Positions 11,621 to 18,821 of a stretch of 24,970 nt of DNA are shown here, in pieces. The stretch comes from a virus. Every line of letters begins with the position of its first letter. Position 1 is the stretch's first letter. Under the pieces are notes generated by a model. It ran no database searches, was not told the DNA's origin, and worked only from the letters and a program-made list of their open reading frames with translations. The stretch is taken from positions 1 through 24,970 of the IMG/VR virus record IMGVR_UViG_3300032607_000466; one strand, given 5' to 3'. A program made the position numbers and the translations under genes.

Positions 11621-12946
11621 TTAGTCCTTAACCATTGCATCATGAAATCTTGCCATTGTCAGAACAACAGTAGTTAGTGTTGGAACCATATTTTCAGTGA
11701 ACTGCACATGGTTAACACTAATGTTTGTTACTCTGGCTAAGTACCGTAGTTTTCTTCCCATGTGAACTTCAACTGCTATACCGTTTAACCAACCAACGTC
11801 TCCAGTCGTTACTCCACGTAGGGGGCTTTTGTATCCGCCCATCTCACCATTTATGGCTTTAAATAGAAAATCTAAGTCATACATCGTGCCAAAATCTTTA
11901 ATTAACTTACGGTCTGCTGCTGAAACTACTTCTGGGTAATACTCTAAAGACTTTACATCAGAATTAACAGGTGCGTTATTACTTGGCTGTTGAATAGCAA
12001 AAGTTGCTAATGCATTCATATCTTCAATTCTATTTAAATAAAGAGTAATTGAAATTGCACTACTAGAAGCAGGAGTAGTTATCATGTTTGTTTTGTCTTT
12101 TCCAGATTCAATAAGTTCTGGAGAAATGCCTGATATAGACCCGTAAGACTGTGTTACAAACTGAGGGTTATAGTGAAACCTAAAACCAAAAGGTACTTTG
12201 TATCCACCAACTAATGATTGAGATTTAGAGTTATCTTTTGAATCAAAGGCTGCATCAATTGCTCTCTTATTTGGAACAATAAACCCTCTATTAGTATCTC
12301 CATCCCCAAAAGTACTTAAAGTATCAATTAAACTAGCAGCACTTTTTGGTATTGCTCCTCGAGCAACTAAAGAGTTAGTTGGGTGAGTTTTTGTTCTAAA
12401 GTATGCTGATTTGACCATTGGAGCATTAAACCTAGTTGCAGCAGGTGGTGCTTGGTCACCAGGTGCTTTAGTATTTTTATTTCCGCCAGTAGTGGCTTTT
12501 GCTTTTTTAGCATCTGCTAATGCTTTTTGTACGCGAGCACGACCCTCTAGAATGTAGTTTTCTGAGGCAGTTCTACCTGTAGTTATTACAAGTAATTCAT
12601 CTTTTTTCTTTCCGATGTTAGCGTCTATTTTAGAAATTTCATTAACAGTACTAGTGTAACTATTTTTGGCTGATGAAATGATTGCAGCACTAAATCCGCT
12701 AATAACAGCATTGTTATACATGTTTTGATAGTAAGTTCGTAATGCTGACTGTCGTTTTTTCTCGGCTTCAAGCAGTTCAATCTGTTTTTTAACGCCTTTG
12801 AGTGAGTTTGCTTTATTCTTCGCTGCTTCGGCTTGTTTAGCAGCAAGTTTGGCTTTGTCTTGCTCTGCTCTAGCAGCAGTAAGGCCAGCAGCCAAATCAC
12901 GTTCTGCTTTTGCTTTAAGGCCAGGTGTGGTTACTGGTTTCGTCAT
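11621..12946 (-). CDS. Post-tape-measure tail/baseplate protein with long coiled coil
   Basis: This 441-residue protein has residues about 5-150 as an Ala/Lys/Glu-rich coiled coil, broken by a hydrophobic helix at about 83-100. Residues about 150-200 form a disordered linker, and residues about 245-441 a folded domain (PFGFRFHYNPQ, AISITLYLNRIEDM, GTMYDLDFLFKAING, VGWLNGIAVEVHMGR, YLARVTNISVNHVQFTENMV, LTMARFHDAM). The C-terminal domain resembles tail proteins encoded just after the tape measure in other contractile phages. It is the likely counterpart of the tube initiator (T4 gp48/gp54 position), an assignment by order rather than sequence. The start overlaps the tape-measure stop by 4 nt (ATGA). 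The coiled coil could contact the tape measure. Confidence 0.65.
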   Translation of the reverse strand: MTKPVTTPGLKAKAERDLAAGLTAARAEQDKAKLAAKQAEAAKNKANSLKGVKKQIELLEAEKKRQSALRTYYQNMYNNAVISGFSAAIISSAKNSYTSTVNEISKIDANIGKKKDELLVITTGRTASENYILEGRARVQKALADAKKAKATTGGNKNTKAPGDQAPPAATRFNAPMVKSAYFRTKTHPTNSLVARGAIPKSAASLIDTLSTFGDGDTNRGFIVPNKRAIDAAFDSKDNSKSQSLVGGYKVPFGFRFHYNPQFVTQSYGSISGISPELIESGKDKTNMITTPASSSAISITLYLNRIEDMNALATFAIQQPSNNAPVNSDVKSLEYYPEVVSAADRKLIKDFGTMYDLDFLFKAINGEMGGYKSPLRGVTTGDVGWLNGIAVEVHMGRKLRYLARVTNISVNHVQFTENMVPTLTTVVLTMARFHDAMVKD

Positions 12947-15678
12947 TTCCCGCCTACCAATCTAAGTAAATTTTCTTTTTCAAGTTGTGTTTTAACAATC
13001 TCGACAAGGTTCATGGCCTCGGCATAAGATGCTTGTTGGACACTCACATTAATTGTTATAGAAGGAGAGACGTTTATTCCTGAAGATGAGGAGAGGGTTG
13101 CCACTGATGGAGACCCGCCACCTTGGAACTTGTAAGGATTTTTTCCTGTTTTACCAGTCATCCATGCAGAGTTATTTATTGCTCCTAAAATAGAGTCTGT
13201 TGAAGCACCTGATTTTAAAGCATCTACAATTGCTGTGTAGCCACGGTCACCAGCATTTTTACCAGTCAATGTTCCAATAGTTGCTGCGTAGCCTTCTTCC
13301 CAAGACTTGTATCGTTTTACTCCCACACTATTCATAGACTCACTGTTACCCATGTCTAACGTAGTATTTAAAGGGTTATAGTTTGCAGAGTTTTTCCAGT
13401 GTCCACCTTCATGACGCATCCAAGTAGTTAAAGCGTTTACGGAGGCATCATTAACTGGAGCACCCATTTTTTGAAGAAGTCCAGTAGCCCATTCTTTTTC
13501 ACTACCAGTTCCAAGGATTACCTTTGAACCACCGCTTCCACTGCTACTACTAGCACTACCCAAAAGTTCAGCAGGAAGATTTCCTATGCCACCACTTAGT
13601 AGGTCCTGTAAAGATTTAGAACCAATCATAGAAGATAACTGTTGTCCGTTAGTTGAAGTTGCATTATTGCCACTTGCACCTAAAACTCCCGCTAAACCAG
13701 AACCACCTGCTTTGCCTAATTCTTCAGGATTTACAGGGTTATTTTTTCCTTTGCGTACTTCATAGTGCAAGTGAGGACCAGTAACTTTTCCAGTCTCACC
13801 GCTTTTTGCAATTAGTTGTCCTTGTGTAACAGTCTCGCCAACTTTAACCATTACCTCAGATAAATGTCCGTACAAAGTTTGATAACCATTTCCGTGGTCA
13901 ATTTCTACGGTTTTACCGTAATCTGAACCAGGACTTGTGTTAATAACTACTCCACCTAATGATGCATGAACAGGTGTTCCAACTGCACATGGATAATCTT
14001 GACCTGTGTGACTTCCACCAGACCATAAACTTCCTGTAGCACCGTAAGGTGTTCCTACACCTCCATTAGTAATTGGTGAAGAAGGGGATGCACTTCCTCC
14101 ACCCATGCTACCAAAAGACGCACCAAATCCTGGAGTACCACCACCAGAACCAAAGAAACCACCGAGGCCACCAATGAGTCCACCAATAACAGCACCAATA
14201 CCCGTTCCAAGAACTGGAACAACACTGCCAATTCCTGCACCAACTAAAGCACCAGTGCCAGCACCTGCTGCAACTGAACCAACACGAGTAGTTCCTTGAC
14301 TTACGCCTAGTTTATTTCCTAGTGCTTTTCCACCCTTACCTGTTAAATACCCTAAACCACCTGCTGCAACTACTACTCCTGCACTTGCTGCACCTGCTGC
14401 CATTGCACTACCTGCAGCCACTGCACCACCTGCTGCAGCACCACCTGCAGCAGCCATTACTGCACCACCAGCCATCATTGCAATAATTGTTTGTACGCCA
14501 GCAAGAATTCCTCCTACGGCAATTCCGATTCCTGCACCTGCACGTGATTCACCCATACCGCCTAAAAATCCAGAGGCTTTTCCTGCAACACTAGCCATAT
14601 TTTCTAAAGCGGGATTAACGGTATTAACAATTAAATCTGCTGCTGATTTAAAGCCTGCTAAAACAGGTTCTGTGTACGCATTTAAAACAGATGTGTCGGA
14701 GGTATTAATACGTAGTTTGTCTACGTTTGGGTTTTGTCCATAACCTAATTTTGATAAATCAGTTTGCTTTCCTTGCACCCTATCGCGGGAATACTGCATA
14801 AATAAATCTCTTTGGTCTGCTGACATTCCTAAATCAGTAGCAGTTTTTCCAAAGTTACCTGCTTGAAAACTGTTGTTTAATTCTTCTAAAGTCATCTTGC
14901 CTTGGCCTTGAGTCAAACGTCCATATAGTTGACCCATAATTTCATCTTGACCTCGAGCCTTACCTGTTTTACTATCGTAAGTGCTGATACCAAGGTTGTA
15001 TAACTTGGATGAAAAATCTCCTTGAGTAAACCCAGACATTGCAACCATAGCATTTTCATTTGCCATGTTCATGTAACGTGCAGCACCACCAACATCTCCA
15101 ACTAAAGCGTTGTATTGAGCACTACCTGGTGTAATACCTCTTGATGCAGCAATACCCGCAATGTTTGAAGAAGAAAGAGTGCTAGAAACACCACCTGCTA
15201 AACCGCCAAAAGTTGCATTCATTATGCTTCTGCGATTCATATTAGAACCGAGAGAGGCTCCATAATAGTTGGCAGCACTTGCTCCAACTTCGGCAACTCC
15301 TGGAACTGCAGCCATTACTCCAGCAGCAATACCAAAGGTTGCTTGTGCAACGCCTTGTGCAACTCCTAGTGCTTTTGCTCCACGAGTAGGGCTTAAACCA
15401 TAGCGAGTAGCCTCCATACCTTCTCGCATGGCAATTTCTGCAGTGCTGTTTACTGTTTCTTGCCCACCAAAGGTTGCTTTGCCCATGTGAGGCATTTGGC
15501 TATTGTTACCAGAACCAATATGACGGTCACCACCACCCTTGGCAGATTTTGCTTTTCCAGCAACTCCACCCATAGAACCTTCAAGGCGTTTAGTAATTTG
15601 TTCAGCAGAGGTCAGGCTTTTGACAATGCTGGATAACAATTCGTCAGTTTGTTTTAACGAATCATTTAATTCTGCCAC
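12943..15678 (-). CDS. Tail tape measure protein with M23 peptidase and lysozyme-like domains
   Basis: This 911-residue protein starts at GTG with AAGGAG 5 nt upstream. Residues 1-70 are helical. Several hydrophobic Gly/Ala-rich stretches (about 110-140, 385-450 and 465-515) could insert in the membrane. Residues about 545-660 are an M23 metallopeptidase with complete zinc motifs, HTGQD (H557, D561) and HLH (H636, H638), which cuts peptide cross-links in peptidoglycan. Residues about 725-860 resemble a lysozyme-like or glucosaminidase-type domain (TTWMRHEGGHW with E757 as candidate acid, YNPLNTT, RYKSWEEGYAATIGTL). The tape measure sets tail length and is ejected early, so both domains would help it cross the cell wall. 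Two wall-cutting domains are unusual but known in phages of thick-walled hosts. Confidence 0.88.
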   Translation of the reverse strand: MAELNDSLKQTDELLSSIVKSLTSAEQITKRLEGSMGGVAGKAKSAKGGGDRHIGSGNNSQMPHMGKATFGGQETVNSTAEIAMREGMEATRYGLSPTRGAKALGVAQGVAQATFGIAAGVMAAVPGVAEVGASAANYYGASLGSNMNRRSIMNATFGGLAGGVSSTLSSSNIAGIAASRGITPGSAQYNALVGDVGGAARYMNMANENAMVAMSGFTQGDFSSKLYNLGISTYDSKTGKARGQDEIMGQLYGRLTQGQGKMTLEELNNSFQAGNFGKTATDLGMSADQRDLFMQYSRDRVQGKQTDLSKLGYGQNPNVDKLRINTSDTSVLNAYTEPVLAGFKSAADLIVNTVNPALENMASVAGKASGFLGGMGESRAGAGIGIAVGGILAGVQTIIAMMAGGAVMAAAGGAAAGGAVAAGSAMAAGAASAGVVVAAGGLGYLTGKGGKALGNKLGVSQGTTRVGSVAAGAGTGALVGAGIGSVVPVLGTGIGAVIGGLIGGLGGFFGSGGGTPGFGASFGSMGGGSASPSSPITNGGVGTPYGATGSLWSGGSHTGQDYPCAVGTPVHASLGGVVINTSPGSDYGKTVEIDHGNGYQTLYGHLSEVMVKVGETVTQGQLIAKSGETGKVTGPHLHYEVRKGKNNPVNPEELGKAGGSGLAGVLGASGNNATSTNGQQLSSMIGSKSLQDLLSGGIGNLPAELLGSASSSSGSGGSKVILGTGSEKEWATGLLQKMGAPVNDASVNALTTWMRHEGGHWKNSANYNPLNTTLDMGNSESMNSVGVKRYKSWEEGYAATIGTLTGKNAGDRGYTAIVDALKSGASTDSILGAINNSAWMTGKTGKNPYKFQGGGSPSVATLSSSSGINVSPSITINVSVQQASYAEAMNLVEIVKTQLEKENLLRLVGGK

Positions 15679-15687
15679 GTCAACTCC

Positions 15688-15804
15688 TTAGTAACCTTCT
15701 TTAGCAAGTGCTAACCAATTTTTTCGTTCTCTTACTGAAAGTTCTTTTATCTCAGTTAAGGTCCAACCTTGATGCCTTTCCGACAGTGCTAACCATTCAG
15801 CCAT
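15688..15804 (-). CDS. Short ORF before the tape measure, probable frameshift-expressed half of a tail assembly chaperone
   Basis: From the ATG at 15804 this reads 38 residues (MAEWLALSERHQGW, then LTEIKELSVRERKNWLALA). The frame is open upstream through the previous gene's stop, as far as a TAG 15 nt before that stop. No Shine-Dalgarno precedes the ATG, whereas nearly all neighbours have one. The ORF is in the +1 frame relative to the upstream gene, which makes it a candidate C-terminal extension made by frameshifting (46 extra residues from the slip site). It sits exactly where the second half of the gpG/gpT-type chaperone pair lies in many tailed phages. The SVRERKNWL segment resembles short C-terminal parts in such pairs. 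Independent reinitiation is the alternative. Confidence 0.6.
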   Translation of the reverse strand: MAEWLALSERHQGWTLTEIKELSVRERKNWLALAKEGY

Positions 15805-15826
15805 CAAAATCGGATAATGCGATACT

Positions 15827-15832
15827 TTAAAA
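15827..15832 (-). promoter_or_regulatory. Candidate +1 frameshift site TTT TAA
   Basis: On the coding strand the zero frame reads CGC TTT TAA. The base after TTT is T, so a tRNA-Phe on TTT can slip forward one base and pair again perfectly with TTT, after which AAA is read in place of the stop. A slow stop codon in the A site behind a re-pairable P-site codon is the logic of the prfB site (CTT TGA). An AGGG lies 12 nt upstream of the TTT, too far to act like the prfB Shine-Dalgarno. The window in which a +1 shift is possible is only about 18 nt. Confidence 0.45.
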
Positions 15833-16633
15833 GCGAAACAATATCCCTAAATTAATAGGAGTATTTACCTCACCTTCGCAGTCAGGACAAGGAACTGAAA
15901 TATCTTCAAAAACTGGTCCAATTGCGTGTTTGTTAATTGCTTCGCCAATTAAGCGTCTGTCACTAATACCTAAATTTTGAATCTGTCCCTTACCAATAAC
16001 AGGACGACCATTAATCTTAAGTATGCAGTTTTCAAGAAGAAGAGTTGTTAACTCGGACATAGTTTTATCGGAGTTATTTACCAATTCTTTTTGACAATAT
16101 CCTGTAGGTAGTGACACCACTACTTCTCCACACTTAGCATTTACTATAAAAGTAGGCTCATCTACTAGAGTTCTTACCTTTATGTCTTCGTTTATATCGA
16201 TTGTAACTGGCTTAAAGGCATTGCATCCGCCACAAAAACCCTGTAGTTCTGGGGTATTACCAAAGGTTGCTTTGTAAATACCTAACATCACAGCGTCTCT
16301 GTCGCCAGCCAACATAGCATCTAGTGCATCATCGGTTGCAACTTCTTTTCCAATTTTTACAGTTCCACGGCTTAATACTTGTAGAAGAGCCTTTCCAAGA
16401 TTCTGTGCTCTTGCGATTGACTCTTCATCTTTTCCAGTTAATTCACGAACCTCAACTGTTGTCACGCTCTCCCCAGCAGCATTTGTATATCCGCCAGGGA
16501 GAGTAACGTGAACATCAGAGGGAGGAGTAACTACAACTGACTCTTTTTCTTTTTCAGGTTCTGCCATCGCTTGTGCAACCATCTGGTTAACAAGGTCTGG
16601 ATTTTCGGATGCTTTTACGGTTTGAGTAGACAT
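15827..16633 (-). CDS. Zinc-ribbon tail protein in the tail assembly chaperone slot
   Basis: This 268-residue protein has an acidic, disordered N-terminus (1-40). A beta segment follows (VHVTLPGGYTNAAGESV, TTVEVRELTGKDEESI), then a helical region (70-125). Paired cysteines lie at 134/137 (FCGGC) and 249/252 (CPDC) and could form one zinc ribbon. The beta-grasp-like start and the zinc ribbon resemble T4 gp26-type baseplate proteins. The gene lies between the tube and the tape measure, where tail assembly chaperones are encoded, and the short ORF after it supports that role. By family it could be a baseplate protein instead. The Shine-Dalgarno (AAGGAAA) precedes the ATG after a run of stop codons from the tube gene. 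Confidence 0.65.
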   Translation of the reverse strand: MSTQTVKASENPDLVNQMVAQAMAEPEKEKESVVVTPPSDVHVTLPGGYTNAAGESVTTVEVRELTGKDEESIARAQNLGKALLQVLSRGTVKIGKEVATDDALDAMLAGDRDAVMLGIYKATFGNTPELQGFCGGCNAFKPVTIDINEDIKVRTLVDEPTFIVNAKCGEVVVSLPTGYCQKELVNNSDKTMSELTTLLLENCILKINGRPVIGKGQIQNLGISDRRLIGEAINKHAIGPVFEDISVPCPDCEGEVNTPINLGILFRF

Positions 16634-16656: not shown

Positions 16657-17280
16657 TTACGCTGTTGCTACCTGTTGGTCAACTGCGGGTGCAGAGACAA
16701 ACTTCTTAGTAGCATCAAATGAAGAGAATGATGTATCAAATCCTTCGTGAACAAGTGTCATTTGTTCAACAAGGAGTGAGTTATCTCCAGCATTAAGGTC
16801 TGAGTAAGCAAGTGCTGTAGGCCAGCAATTGTAGAACTTAAACCTCATTGCAGTTTGTTCTTGTGTGCCTGCTGCAAGAGTCTCTTGTGCGATTGGATGT
16901 GGAAGAACAGAAATCTCAATATCGCAACGGAAGTTTTGATTGATAGTTCTGTTTCCACCATTTTGAACTGTGTAGAACATGTTCTTCATCCAGTTCCAGC
17001 CTTGCTTATTTCCGATTAGTACGCCTCTTTGAAGAGTAACTGGTTGGAAAGAAGTTTGACCAGGAATCTGGTGAACAGTTGTATTGTAGCCACCTTCACG
17101 ATAAGGAATAGAGTCTGTGGTTACAGCCATTCCCGAAACTGAAGTAAAGCCCATAGTTGCTGTTGATAACTCAGTCAGATTTGTGTCGTTTGAGTTTAGC
17201 GGGTAAAAATTAACCAAAAACCTAAAGTTTCTGATTGGGTCAGTCGCAAGACTAGACCTGTTTTTATCTACAAATGCCAT
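16657..17280 (-). CDS. Tail tube protein, gp19-like
   Basis: This 207-residue protein belongs to the T4 gp19-like tube family (PF06841). It shows the N-terminal DPIRNFRFLVNF segment, then GFTSVSGMAV, IPYREGGYNTTVHQIPGQTSF and VTLQRGVLIGNKQGWNWMKNMF, and later RFKFYNCWPTALAYSDLNA and LVEQMTLVHEGF. These are the conserved blocks of the tube subunits through which DNA leaves the capsid. It follows the sheath gene, the normal order in contractile phages. The length is typical. Confidence 0.93.
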   Translation of the reverse strand: MAFVDKNRSSLATDPIRNFRFLVNFYPLNSNDTNLTELSTATMGFTSVSGMAVTTDSIPYREGGYNTTVHQIPGQTSFQPVTLQRGVLIGNKQGWNWMKNMFYTVQNGGNRTINQNFRCDIEISVLPHPIAQETLAAGTQEQTAMRFKFYNCWPTALAYSDLNAGDNSLLVEQMTLVHEGFDTSFSSFDATKKFVSAPAVDQQVATA

Positions 17281-17300: not shown

Positions 17301-18821
17301 TTAGTTTAAGGTCTTCTGGCTAAGGTTAATAACCACGAATTCCGCAGGGTACTGCAAAGCCACACCAACTTCGATGCGAACTTCGCCACTAGCGATAGAG
17401 GCTGCAGTATTGTTTTCAGCATCGCACTTAATAAAGTACGCGTCTGCAGGAGTATTTCCACGTAATCCTCCTTGATTGCGGTATTCATTTAAGAAGGTGT
17501 TAAGGGTTGTATTAATACGACCCCACAACTGCTCATTGTTATTTTCGAATAACGCAAACTCTGTTAGGTTTTGCAAACTCTTGCGGATGTAAATAATAGA
17601 ACGACGCATATTTACATACTTGCTTGCTGTTCCGTCTTGCTTCAAAGTACGAGCACCCATTACGGATATACCTGCACCTGGAACTTGACGAATTGGATTT
17701 ACAGGAAACATAGAGCCGTTTAAAGAGTCAAGTTCTGAAGCAGTAAACGATTTATCTGTGGCAACCACTCCAGCAACACTTGCTGTTAAACCAGCAGGTG
17801 CTTTAAAGGGACCAACAGTTGCATCGGTTCTTAAGTACAAACCAGCAACTGCTCCTGCGGGACCTACTTTACGTGTAGCACCTGATGCTACGCCAAGAGG
17901 GTCTGCTACTAGAAGGTGTGGGTAATAAACTGCGCCATAAGTACCTGCTCCGCCAAGTGAATCAGCAGTAGTAAGTGCTTGTGCAACAGTAATGCCTGCT
18001 TTTGTTTCTCCAACGAAAAAGTCTTTTTTGGTAGTAACAATATAGGCTGAAAGGTTAGCAGCCAATGTTGTAGCAGCACTTTCTGAGAACAATTCATACA
18101 ACCCTGGTAACCAAATTACTAGAGGTCGGTCAATTAGGTCTATTGCTCCAGGAACGCCAGTTGTAGAACCTTCATAATCAGTAGTAACAACAGCGTTTCC
18201 GTTGGTTCCACCTGTAAATGGAACAACAGAAGATGAAGGGGCATTAACGTTGTCATTTACTGCAGCAGTAAATAGTTGTGAAACAGAGTTGATTACTGTT
18301 GATGCGTAACCGTTAGCGGTTGGCGTTGCAAAATCAAGGTTTTCATACTGCTCTACTAAAACATCATCAGTAACTGATGTGGATGTTCCAATAATGCCTT
18401 CTTTATAGATTGCAACTGTGTATGTAGAGGGTACTGTTCCACCAGTAATTTGAACACGGTAATTGTTTCCGTCAGTTCCTTTATTTTTAGCAGTCAAGGT
18501 AAATACAGTTCCAGCACCAGAAGCACGTGGAACTACGCCAGTTGCAGCACCTGCTGCTTGACCCAGGATTCTCTTAACATAAAGTTCTCTTCCACCATTT
18601 TGGAAAAAGAGGGAGATGGAAAATGTTGCTGGAAATAGTGAGTTGTACCCACCAAATTGTCTTGTAAAATCGTACCAAGAGTTAACCAAGGTTACTTCTG
18701 TTGGACCTTGGGCAAATGGTGCAGCGACCATACCAGCAGCCTGTGCTGTTATGGAGTTGGTGATTGGAGCAGGGAGCAGGACTTCACTGATGTAAATTCC
18801 TGGTCTTTTATAAACTGCCAT
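17301..18821 (-). CDS. Contractile tail sheath protein
   Basis: This 506-residue protein begins MAVYKRPGIYISEV, the typical sheath start, and continues with AAPFAQGPTEVTLVNSWYDF and FFQNGGRELYVKRILG. The C-terminal half has NPIRQVPGAGISVMGARTL, YVNMRRSIIYIRKSLQ and FALFENNNEQLWGRINTTLN, the conserved C-terminal core that carries the strand exchange between subunits. Contraction of this sheath drives the tube through the host envelope. AGGAGA precedes the ATG by 6 nt. A large central insertion (about 95-220, Thr/Val/Gly-rich) is probably the variable outer domain. Confidence 0.96.
   Translation of the reverse strand: MAVYKRPGIYISEVLLPAPITNSITAQAAGMVAAPFAQGPTEVTLVNSWYDFTRQFGGYNSLFPATFSISLFFQNGGRELYVKRILGQAAGAATGVVPRASGAGTVFTLTAKNKGTDGNNYRVQITGGTVPSTYTVAIYKEGIIGTSTSVTDDVLVEQYENLDFATPTANGYASTVINSVSQLFTAAVNDNVNAPSSSVVPFTGGTNGNAVVTTDYEGSTTGVPGAIDLIDRPLVIWLPGLYELFSESAATTLAANLSAYIVTTKKDFFVGETKAGITVAQALTTADSLGGAGTYGAVYYPHLLVADPLGVASGATRKVGPAGAVAGLYLRTDATVGPFKAPAGLTASVAGVVATDKSFTASELDSLNGSMFPVNPIRQVPGAGISVMGARTLKQDGTASKYVNMRRSIIYIRKSLQNLTEFALFENNNEQLWGRINTTLNTFLNEYRNQGGLRGNTPADAYFIKCDAENNTAASIASGEVRIEVGVALQYPAEFVVINLSQKTLN

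Follow-up and report, generated by a model that had tools for sequence, protein, structure and literature searches.

How is a short open reading frame (ORF) translated when no Shine-Dalgarno (SD) sequence precedes its start codon and when its frame, the +1 frame, is already open through the stop codon of the gene before it? The question is raised by the window, a 24,970-nucleotide (nt) stretch of viral DNA (positions 1 to 24,970 of IMG/VR record IMGVR_UViG_3300032607_000466), on whose minus strand the gene ahead of the tape measure ends in TTG TTT CGC TTT TAA. The +1 frame stays open between 15846 and a stop at 15690-15688; its ATG, at 15804 and 23 nt past the 0-frame stop, has no SD sequence in the preceding 20 nt. 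An initial annotation, whose coordinates and frames for the gene end, the +1 ORF and the SD-less ATG proved correct on re-reading, had proposed that a +1 programmed frameshift at the terminal TTT TAA joins the two. Comparison of homologous loci leads us to a different site: two tail assembly chaperones (TACs) are very probably made from one start, namely the 0-frame product TAC-N and a longer TAC-NC that would acquire its C-terminal domain, TAC-C, by a +1 slip at a TTT-C. The features concerned are the following.

15827-16633, minus strand: TAC-N, the 0-frame gene assigned as a tail assembly chaperone of the T4 gp26 type, 268 amino acids (aa) (PF12322, PHROG 150, AF2/Foldseek, slot)
15835-15838, minus strand: shift site TTT_C, TTT CGC in the 0 frame and TTC GCT in the +1 frame (152/152 loci)
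15827-15829, minus strand: 0-frame stop TAA, of which type and distance vary among relatives (locus comparison)
15691-15834, minus strand: TAC-C, predicted +1-frame extension AFKVSHYPILMAEWLALSERHQGWTLTEIKELSVRERKNWLALAKEGY, 48 aa, stop at 15690-15688 (motif, dN/dS 0.07)

Position of the frameshift

Homologues were drawn from IMG/VR, Streptomyces phages and bacterial genomes. The 152 loci fell into 55 clusters below 80% identity, 44 of low and 11 of high GC content (40-68% GC overall; the high-GC group includes prophages of 64-68% GC). Because the p-values given below count clusters as independent, they are overstated; the absence of any exception to TTT-C does not depend on this assumption.

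The TTT-C at 15838-15835, two codons ahead of the stop in the window, was found in all 152 loci and all 55 clusters, and its letters were the only invariant ones at the junction. TTT occupied the site in 11/11 high-GC clusters, compared with 2 of 52 among the upstream Phe codons of these genes (p 1e-10), and was likewise enriched at the site in the 44 low-GC clusters (p 3e-7). The base after TTT was always C, though the residue encoded there is Arg, Gln or Leu, and this C was kept even in low-GC members, in which AGR Arg codons are common elsewhere.

The prfB-like, stop-dependent slip at TTT TAA favoured by the initial annotation is, by comparison, very unlikely. Re-pairing there would be perfect in the window and its near relatives, and stop-associated +1 slips are known from prfB and Listeria phage PSA (PMC5009743). 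However, the last 0-frame codon was TTT in just 5/55 clusters. In most relatives it was TTC, on which a move of tRNA-Phe from UUC to UCU would mismatch; the other codons found (CTC, GTC, GTT, CTG, ATG, GAG, TCC, AAT or GAT) mostly cannot re-pair either. The ratio of TTC to TTT at this codon, 31:5 against a background of 80:174 (p 4e-10), favours the non-slippery choice, a bias expected if the +1 codon overlapping it, TCT (Ser), is decoded, i.e. if the shift occurs upstream. The stop itself was TAA, TAG or TGA and lay 2 to 4 codons past the invariant TTT, and in contig L010 it is lost altogether: TAA is replaced by TAT and the 0 frame continues for another 10 codons before meeting a TGA, while TTT-C and the +1 frame are both preserved. 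The TTT TAA of the window is, as far as the aligned loci indicate, a local coincidence. With TTT-C at 15838-15835 as the invariant element, the junction is predicted to read GILF-A-FKVSHYP, which replaces the originally suggested GILFRF followed by KVSHYP (GILFRFKVSHYP).

Coding status of the +1 frame

Judged by length alone, the 46-codon open frame of the window could be due to chance. We found a +1 ORF with the same motif downstream of the homologous gene in all IMG/VR loci examined, in five Streptomyces phages and in actinobacterial genomes. The motif, W.L.EI..L..RER..W, was conserved as W.L.E...L..RER..W in an alignment of 32 members, and nearly all freshwater members have 22 codons between TTT-C and the GW motif. 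The ratio of nonsynonymous to synonymous substitution rates (dN/dS) of the ORF was 0.07 in the +1 frame versus 2.0 and 1.3 in the other two frames. Searches of the window's short ORF against Pfam and PHROGs returned no match. From these comparisons TAC-C is judged to be a real C-terminal extension of TAC-N that is under purifying selection.

Initiation of the short ORF at ATG 15804, either independent or coupled to translation of the upstream gene, has an even slimmer chance of accounting for TAC-C than a slip at the stop. The window does provide this ATG shortly past the stop, but the codon lacks an SD sequence and is replaced by TTG in the near relatives L004, L005 and L019; in at least 13 distinct relatives the conserved core is preceded by no ATG, GTG or TTG at all; and the linker that leads from the 0-frame stop to the usual ATG is itself under coding selection, with a dN/dS of 0.13 in the +1 frame. 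Because the frame is coding before the ATG and these relatives lack a start codon, it must, on comparative grounds, be entered from upstream, and a frameshift is needed for the TAC-C product. Low dN/dS in ORF and linker, together with the start-less relatives, thus bear out the earlier proposal of a programmed +1 frameshift linking the gene ahead of the tape measure with the short ORF. Of the two elements whose conservation was to be sought by aligning homologous loci, the +1 ORF was present in all group members, whereas TTT TAA was not conserved.

In four cultured Streptomyces phages, TAC-C is annotated as a gene of its own that starts internally, at an M or L within the conserved TAC-C domain: LuckySocke (L082, 4357-4512), BRock (L083, 4339-4521), GiJojo (L084, 3309-3506) and Alone3 (L086, 3357-3512). 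All four carry the signal, and their annotation as two genes would be corrected accordingly. Streptomyces phage pSt2308 (L085) has no gene annotated at TAC-C.

Candidate stimulatory elements upstream of the shift site

Two elements upstream of TTT-C showed selection at the nucleotide level.

15842-15863, minus strand: 5' hairpin, offsets -25 to -4 from the shift codon, candidate +1 stimulator (synonymous shuffles, covariation)
15866-15871, minus strand: SD-like GAGGTA, offsets -33 to -28 (codon bias at -33)

When synonymous codons were shuffled, the hairpin window (-25 to -4) gave a mean z of -1.47, with 42% of the 55 clusters at p ≤ 0.05, whereas nine other windows of the same genes gave mean z values of -0.05 to -0.61, with 7-18% at this threshold. 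A downstream stimulatory structure was not apparent, the 3' windows having a mean z of about -0.8, which was not distinctive. The 3' arm of the hairpin ends 3 nt before TTT and would adjoin the ribosomal E site. One freely variable core pair, formed by the third positions -19 and -10, covaries: it is paired in 40/55 clusters (22 expected) and underwent 7 joint changes on the tree (1.2 expected). Because an RNAalifold consensus of 39 sequences gave only a 4-base-pair core stem, the case for the hairpin is carried by the synonymous shuffles and this one covarying pair.

The codon at -33 was GAG or AAG in 44/44 low-GC clusters and never GAA or AAA, against a background of 42% G-ending codons (p 9e-17). 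Together with this codon an SD-like AGGU is formed at -32 to -29; among high-GC members GGAGGT is frequent. Alternatively, the AGG could be conserved because it pairs with UUU-C as part of an outer stem. Retention of G at a place where A would serve pairing no less well favours an SD-like action, without proving it.

We tentatively regard these elements as a composite signal, in which an SD-like AGGU is combined with a hairpin of ∼22 nt ending 3 nt before UUU_C, the SD-like element perhaps being brought to the E site by RNA folding in a prfB-like manner. If so, bacteria would offer a natural case of +1 frameshifting driven by a 5' hairpin, one retained in phages of freshwater and of Streptomyces as well as in actinobacterial prophages. 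That such a signal is undescribed in the literature searched is possible, and we put it forward with equal reserve.

Proposed decoding of the shift site

A slip in the P site on UUU_C is the natural reading, because UUC is a better match than UUU for tRNA-Phe (anticodon GAA); this was argued and tested for influenza PA-X, for which UUU_C P-site slippage is established (PMC3498833). A 5' hairpin adjacent to the E site stimulates +1 frameshifting on 70S ribosomes in designed constructs (PMC6321510). We infer an efficiency at which most ribosomes would read TAC-N and terminate at TAA. Some ribosomes would skip one base at TTT-C, with tRNA-Phe re-pairing from UUU to UUC in the P site; they would decode GCU next and complete TAC-NC, bearing the 48-aa TAC-C domain. 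The SD-like AGGU and the hairpin directly 5' of the E-site codon would probably promote this forward slip.

Two observations count against this scheme. The A-site codon, CGC in the window, is not uniform across the 55 clusters (36 CGN, 15 CAR and 4 CTN), and the third-position pairs -22/-7 and -25/-4 of the hairpin are weak, leaving a single pair with strong covariation. Least likely of the alternatives is a -2 shift, which reaches the same frame and is used for the TAC of phage Mu (PMC3498833), or transcriptional slippage into that frame, since there is no conserved homopolymer run for the latter, a -2 slip of UUU would leave poor pairing that differs among loci with the preceding codon (TTG, TTA, CTG, ACC, GCG), and the conserved base lies 3' of UUU, where a +1 slip needs it.

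Chaperone identity and wider family

TAC-N matched Pfam PF12322 (T4_baseplate) with 43.3 bits (cutoff 24.5) as well as PHROG 150, and PF12322 was recovered in 41/41 members scanned (E ≤ 0.01). Gene order on the minus strand is sheath (17301-18821), tube, TAC-N, the short +1 ORF and tape measure.

16657-17280, minus strand: tail tube protein, T4 gp19 family (PF06841)
12943-15678, minus strand: tape measure protein with an M23 peptidase domain; its own SD (AAGGAG) overlaps the TAC-C stop

The tape measure GTG, at 15678, is preceded by TAAGGAG, and the M23 domain comprises residues 556-651 of the protein. The PF12322 gene, flanked by tube and tape measure, occupies the position of a TAC, as had been assumed at the outset. 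We assign TAC-N as a T4-gp26-type TAC, with a presumed role in tail assembly.

TAC-N alone, and not the fused TAC-NC, was modelled with AF2 (pLDDT 89). Its best Foldseek match in the PDB was the HK97 tail assembly chaperone 2ob9 (probability 0.99, E 0.066). By VIA-align, residues 39-125 of the model matched 3klu (YqbN; Z 7.2, root-mean-square deviation (rmsd) 3.2, 82 residues aligned) and residues 159-238 matched 2ob9 (Z 7.0, rmsd 3.0, 78 aligned), Z scores in a range that may reflect a common arrangement. The structural likeness of the model to TACs is suggestive. Its two TAC-like halves, 39-125 and 159-238 (gene positions 15830-16633), may point to an internal duplication.

More distant gp26-type TACs, from actinobacterial and other genomes and a 595-kilobase phage, have a C-terminal motif of this kind encoded in the -1 frame (L176, L178, L184, L190 and L192-L197), some with a T TTT TTA heptamer. 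In L182, L183, L189 and L191 the C-terminal domain is fused in frame and no frameshift is needed. A tree grouped the UUU_C members together; the exception inside the group was L185, an in-frame member whose sequence is short and partial and whose branch is long. In Rhodothermus phage RM378 (L175, 2838-3606) a +1 ORF follows a gp26-like gene at TTT TTT TGG, possibly by a UUU_U slip.

Comparison with known systems

Like the TACs of the lambda G/GT class and those of the T4 gp26/gp51 type, the proteins described here would occupy the slot between tube and tape measure and share an N-terminus, one of them with a short frameshifted C-terminal extension. TAC-N belongs to the T4_baseplate/gp26 family, and its predicted fold may resemble that of the HK97 chaperone 2ob9. 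The TACs of T4 are gp26 and gp51, and some T4-like groups reportedly frameshift (Vladimirov 2022 on T4-like TACs, as cited in PMC12846349). The lambda G/GT class usually shifts by -1, whereas the shift here is +1, and remote relatives within the gp26-type family shift by -1 or have the domain fused in frame; one chaperone family would thus reach the same domain pair by +1, by -1 or by plain fusion.

That TACs can be made by +1 shifts was already known, as in HSTV-2 (PMC5009743), and a +1 TTT-CGC site had been proposed for haloviruses of the HF1 group from six related genomes (PMC7230728). We read TTT-CGC in both HSTV-2 (L201, 14982-15813; TCC TTT CGC) and HF1 (L200, 29257-30001; AAG TTT CGC), the HSTV-2 site being that of PA-X except for the last base. 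These viruses have archaeal hosts, whereas the family described here is from bacterial phages. Homology of the HF1 and HSTV-2 TAC-N proteins to this gp26-type family was not detected, though it is still possible, and the shared tetramer is perhaps convergent. Our literature search for UUU-C in bacterial TACs returned only the halovirus proposal; site motifs of PRFect and subscription papers were outside its reach. The PRFect training set (SEA-PHAGES) holds 350 forward sites (PMC10885494). As far as the searched literature goes, the UUU_C site in the gp26-type TAC family of bacterial phages, its invariance, and the 5' hairpin with its SD-like element are new.

The UUU_CGN sites of influenza A PA-X and of plant amalgaviruses work on eukaryotic ribosomes and prefer CGN, whereas the relatives here also have CAR and CTN; for those sites no adjacent 5' hairpin is described in the literature searched, in contrast to the hairpin here. 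The UUU_C +1 signal of influenza and plant viruses is strongly conserved in bacterial viruses. The likeness to prfB would lie in a +1 P-site slip on the 70S ribosome and in a duplex on the 5' side, close to the E site. Unlike in prfB, the stop beside the slippery codon is not conserved, and the prfB SD lies about 3 nt before the slippery codon, a position taken here by the 3' arm of the hairpin. The duplex adjoining the E site would be an mRNA hairpin, with the SD-like element about 30 nt upstream, and the family offers a natural system in which to test whether a 5' hairpin and an SD-like element can push the 70S ribosome forward.
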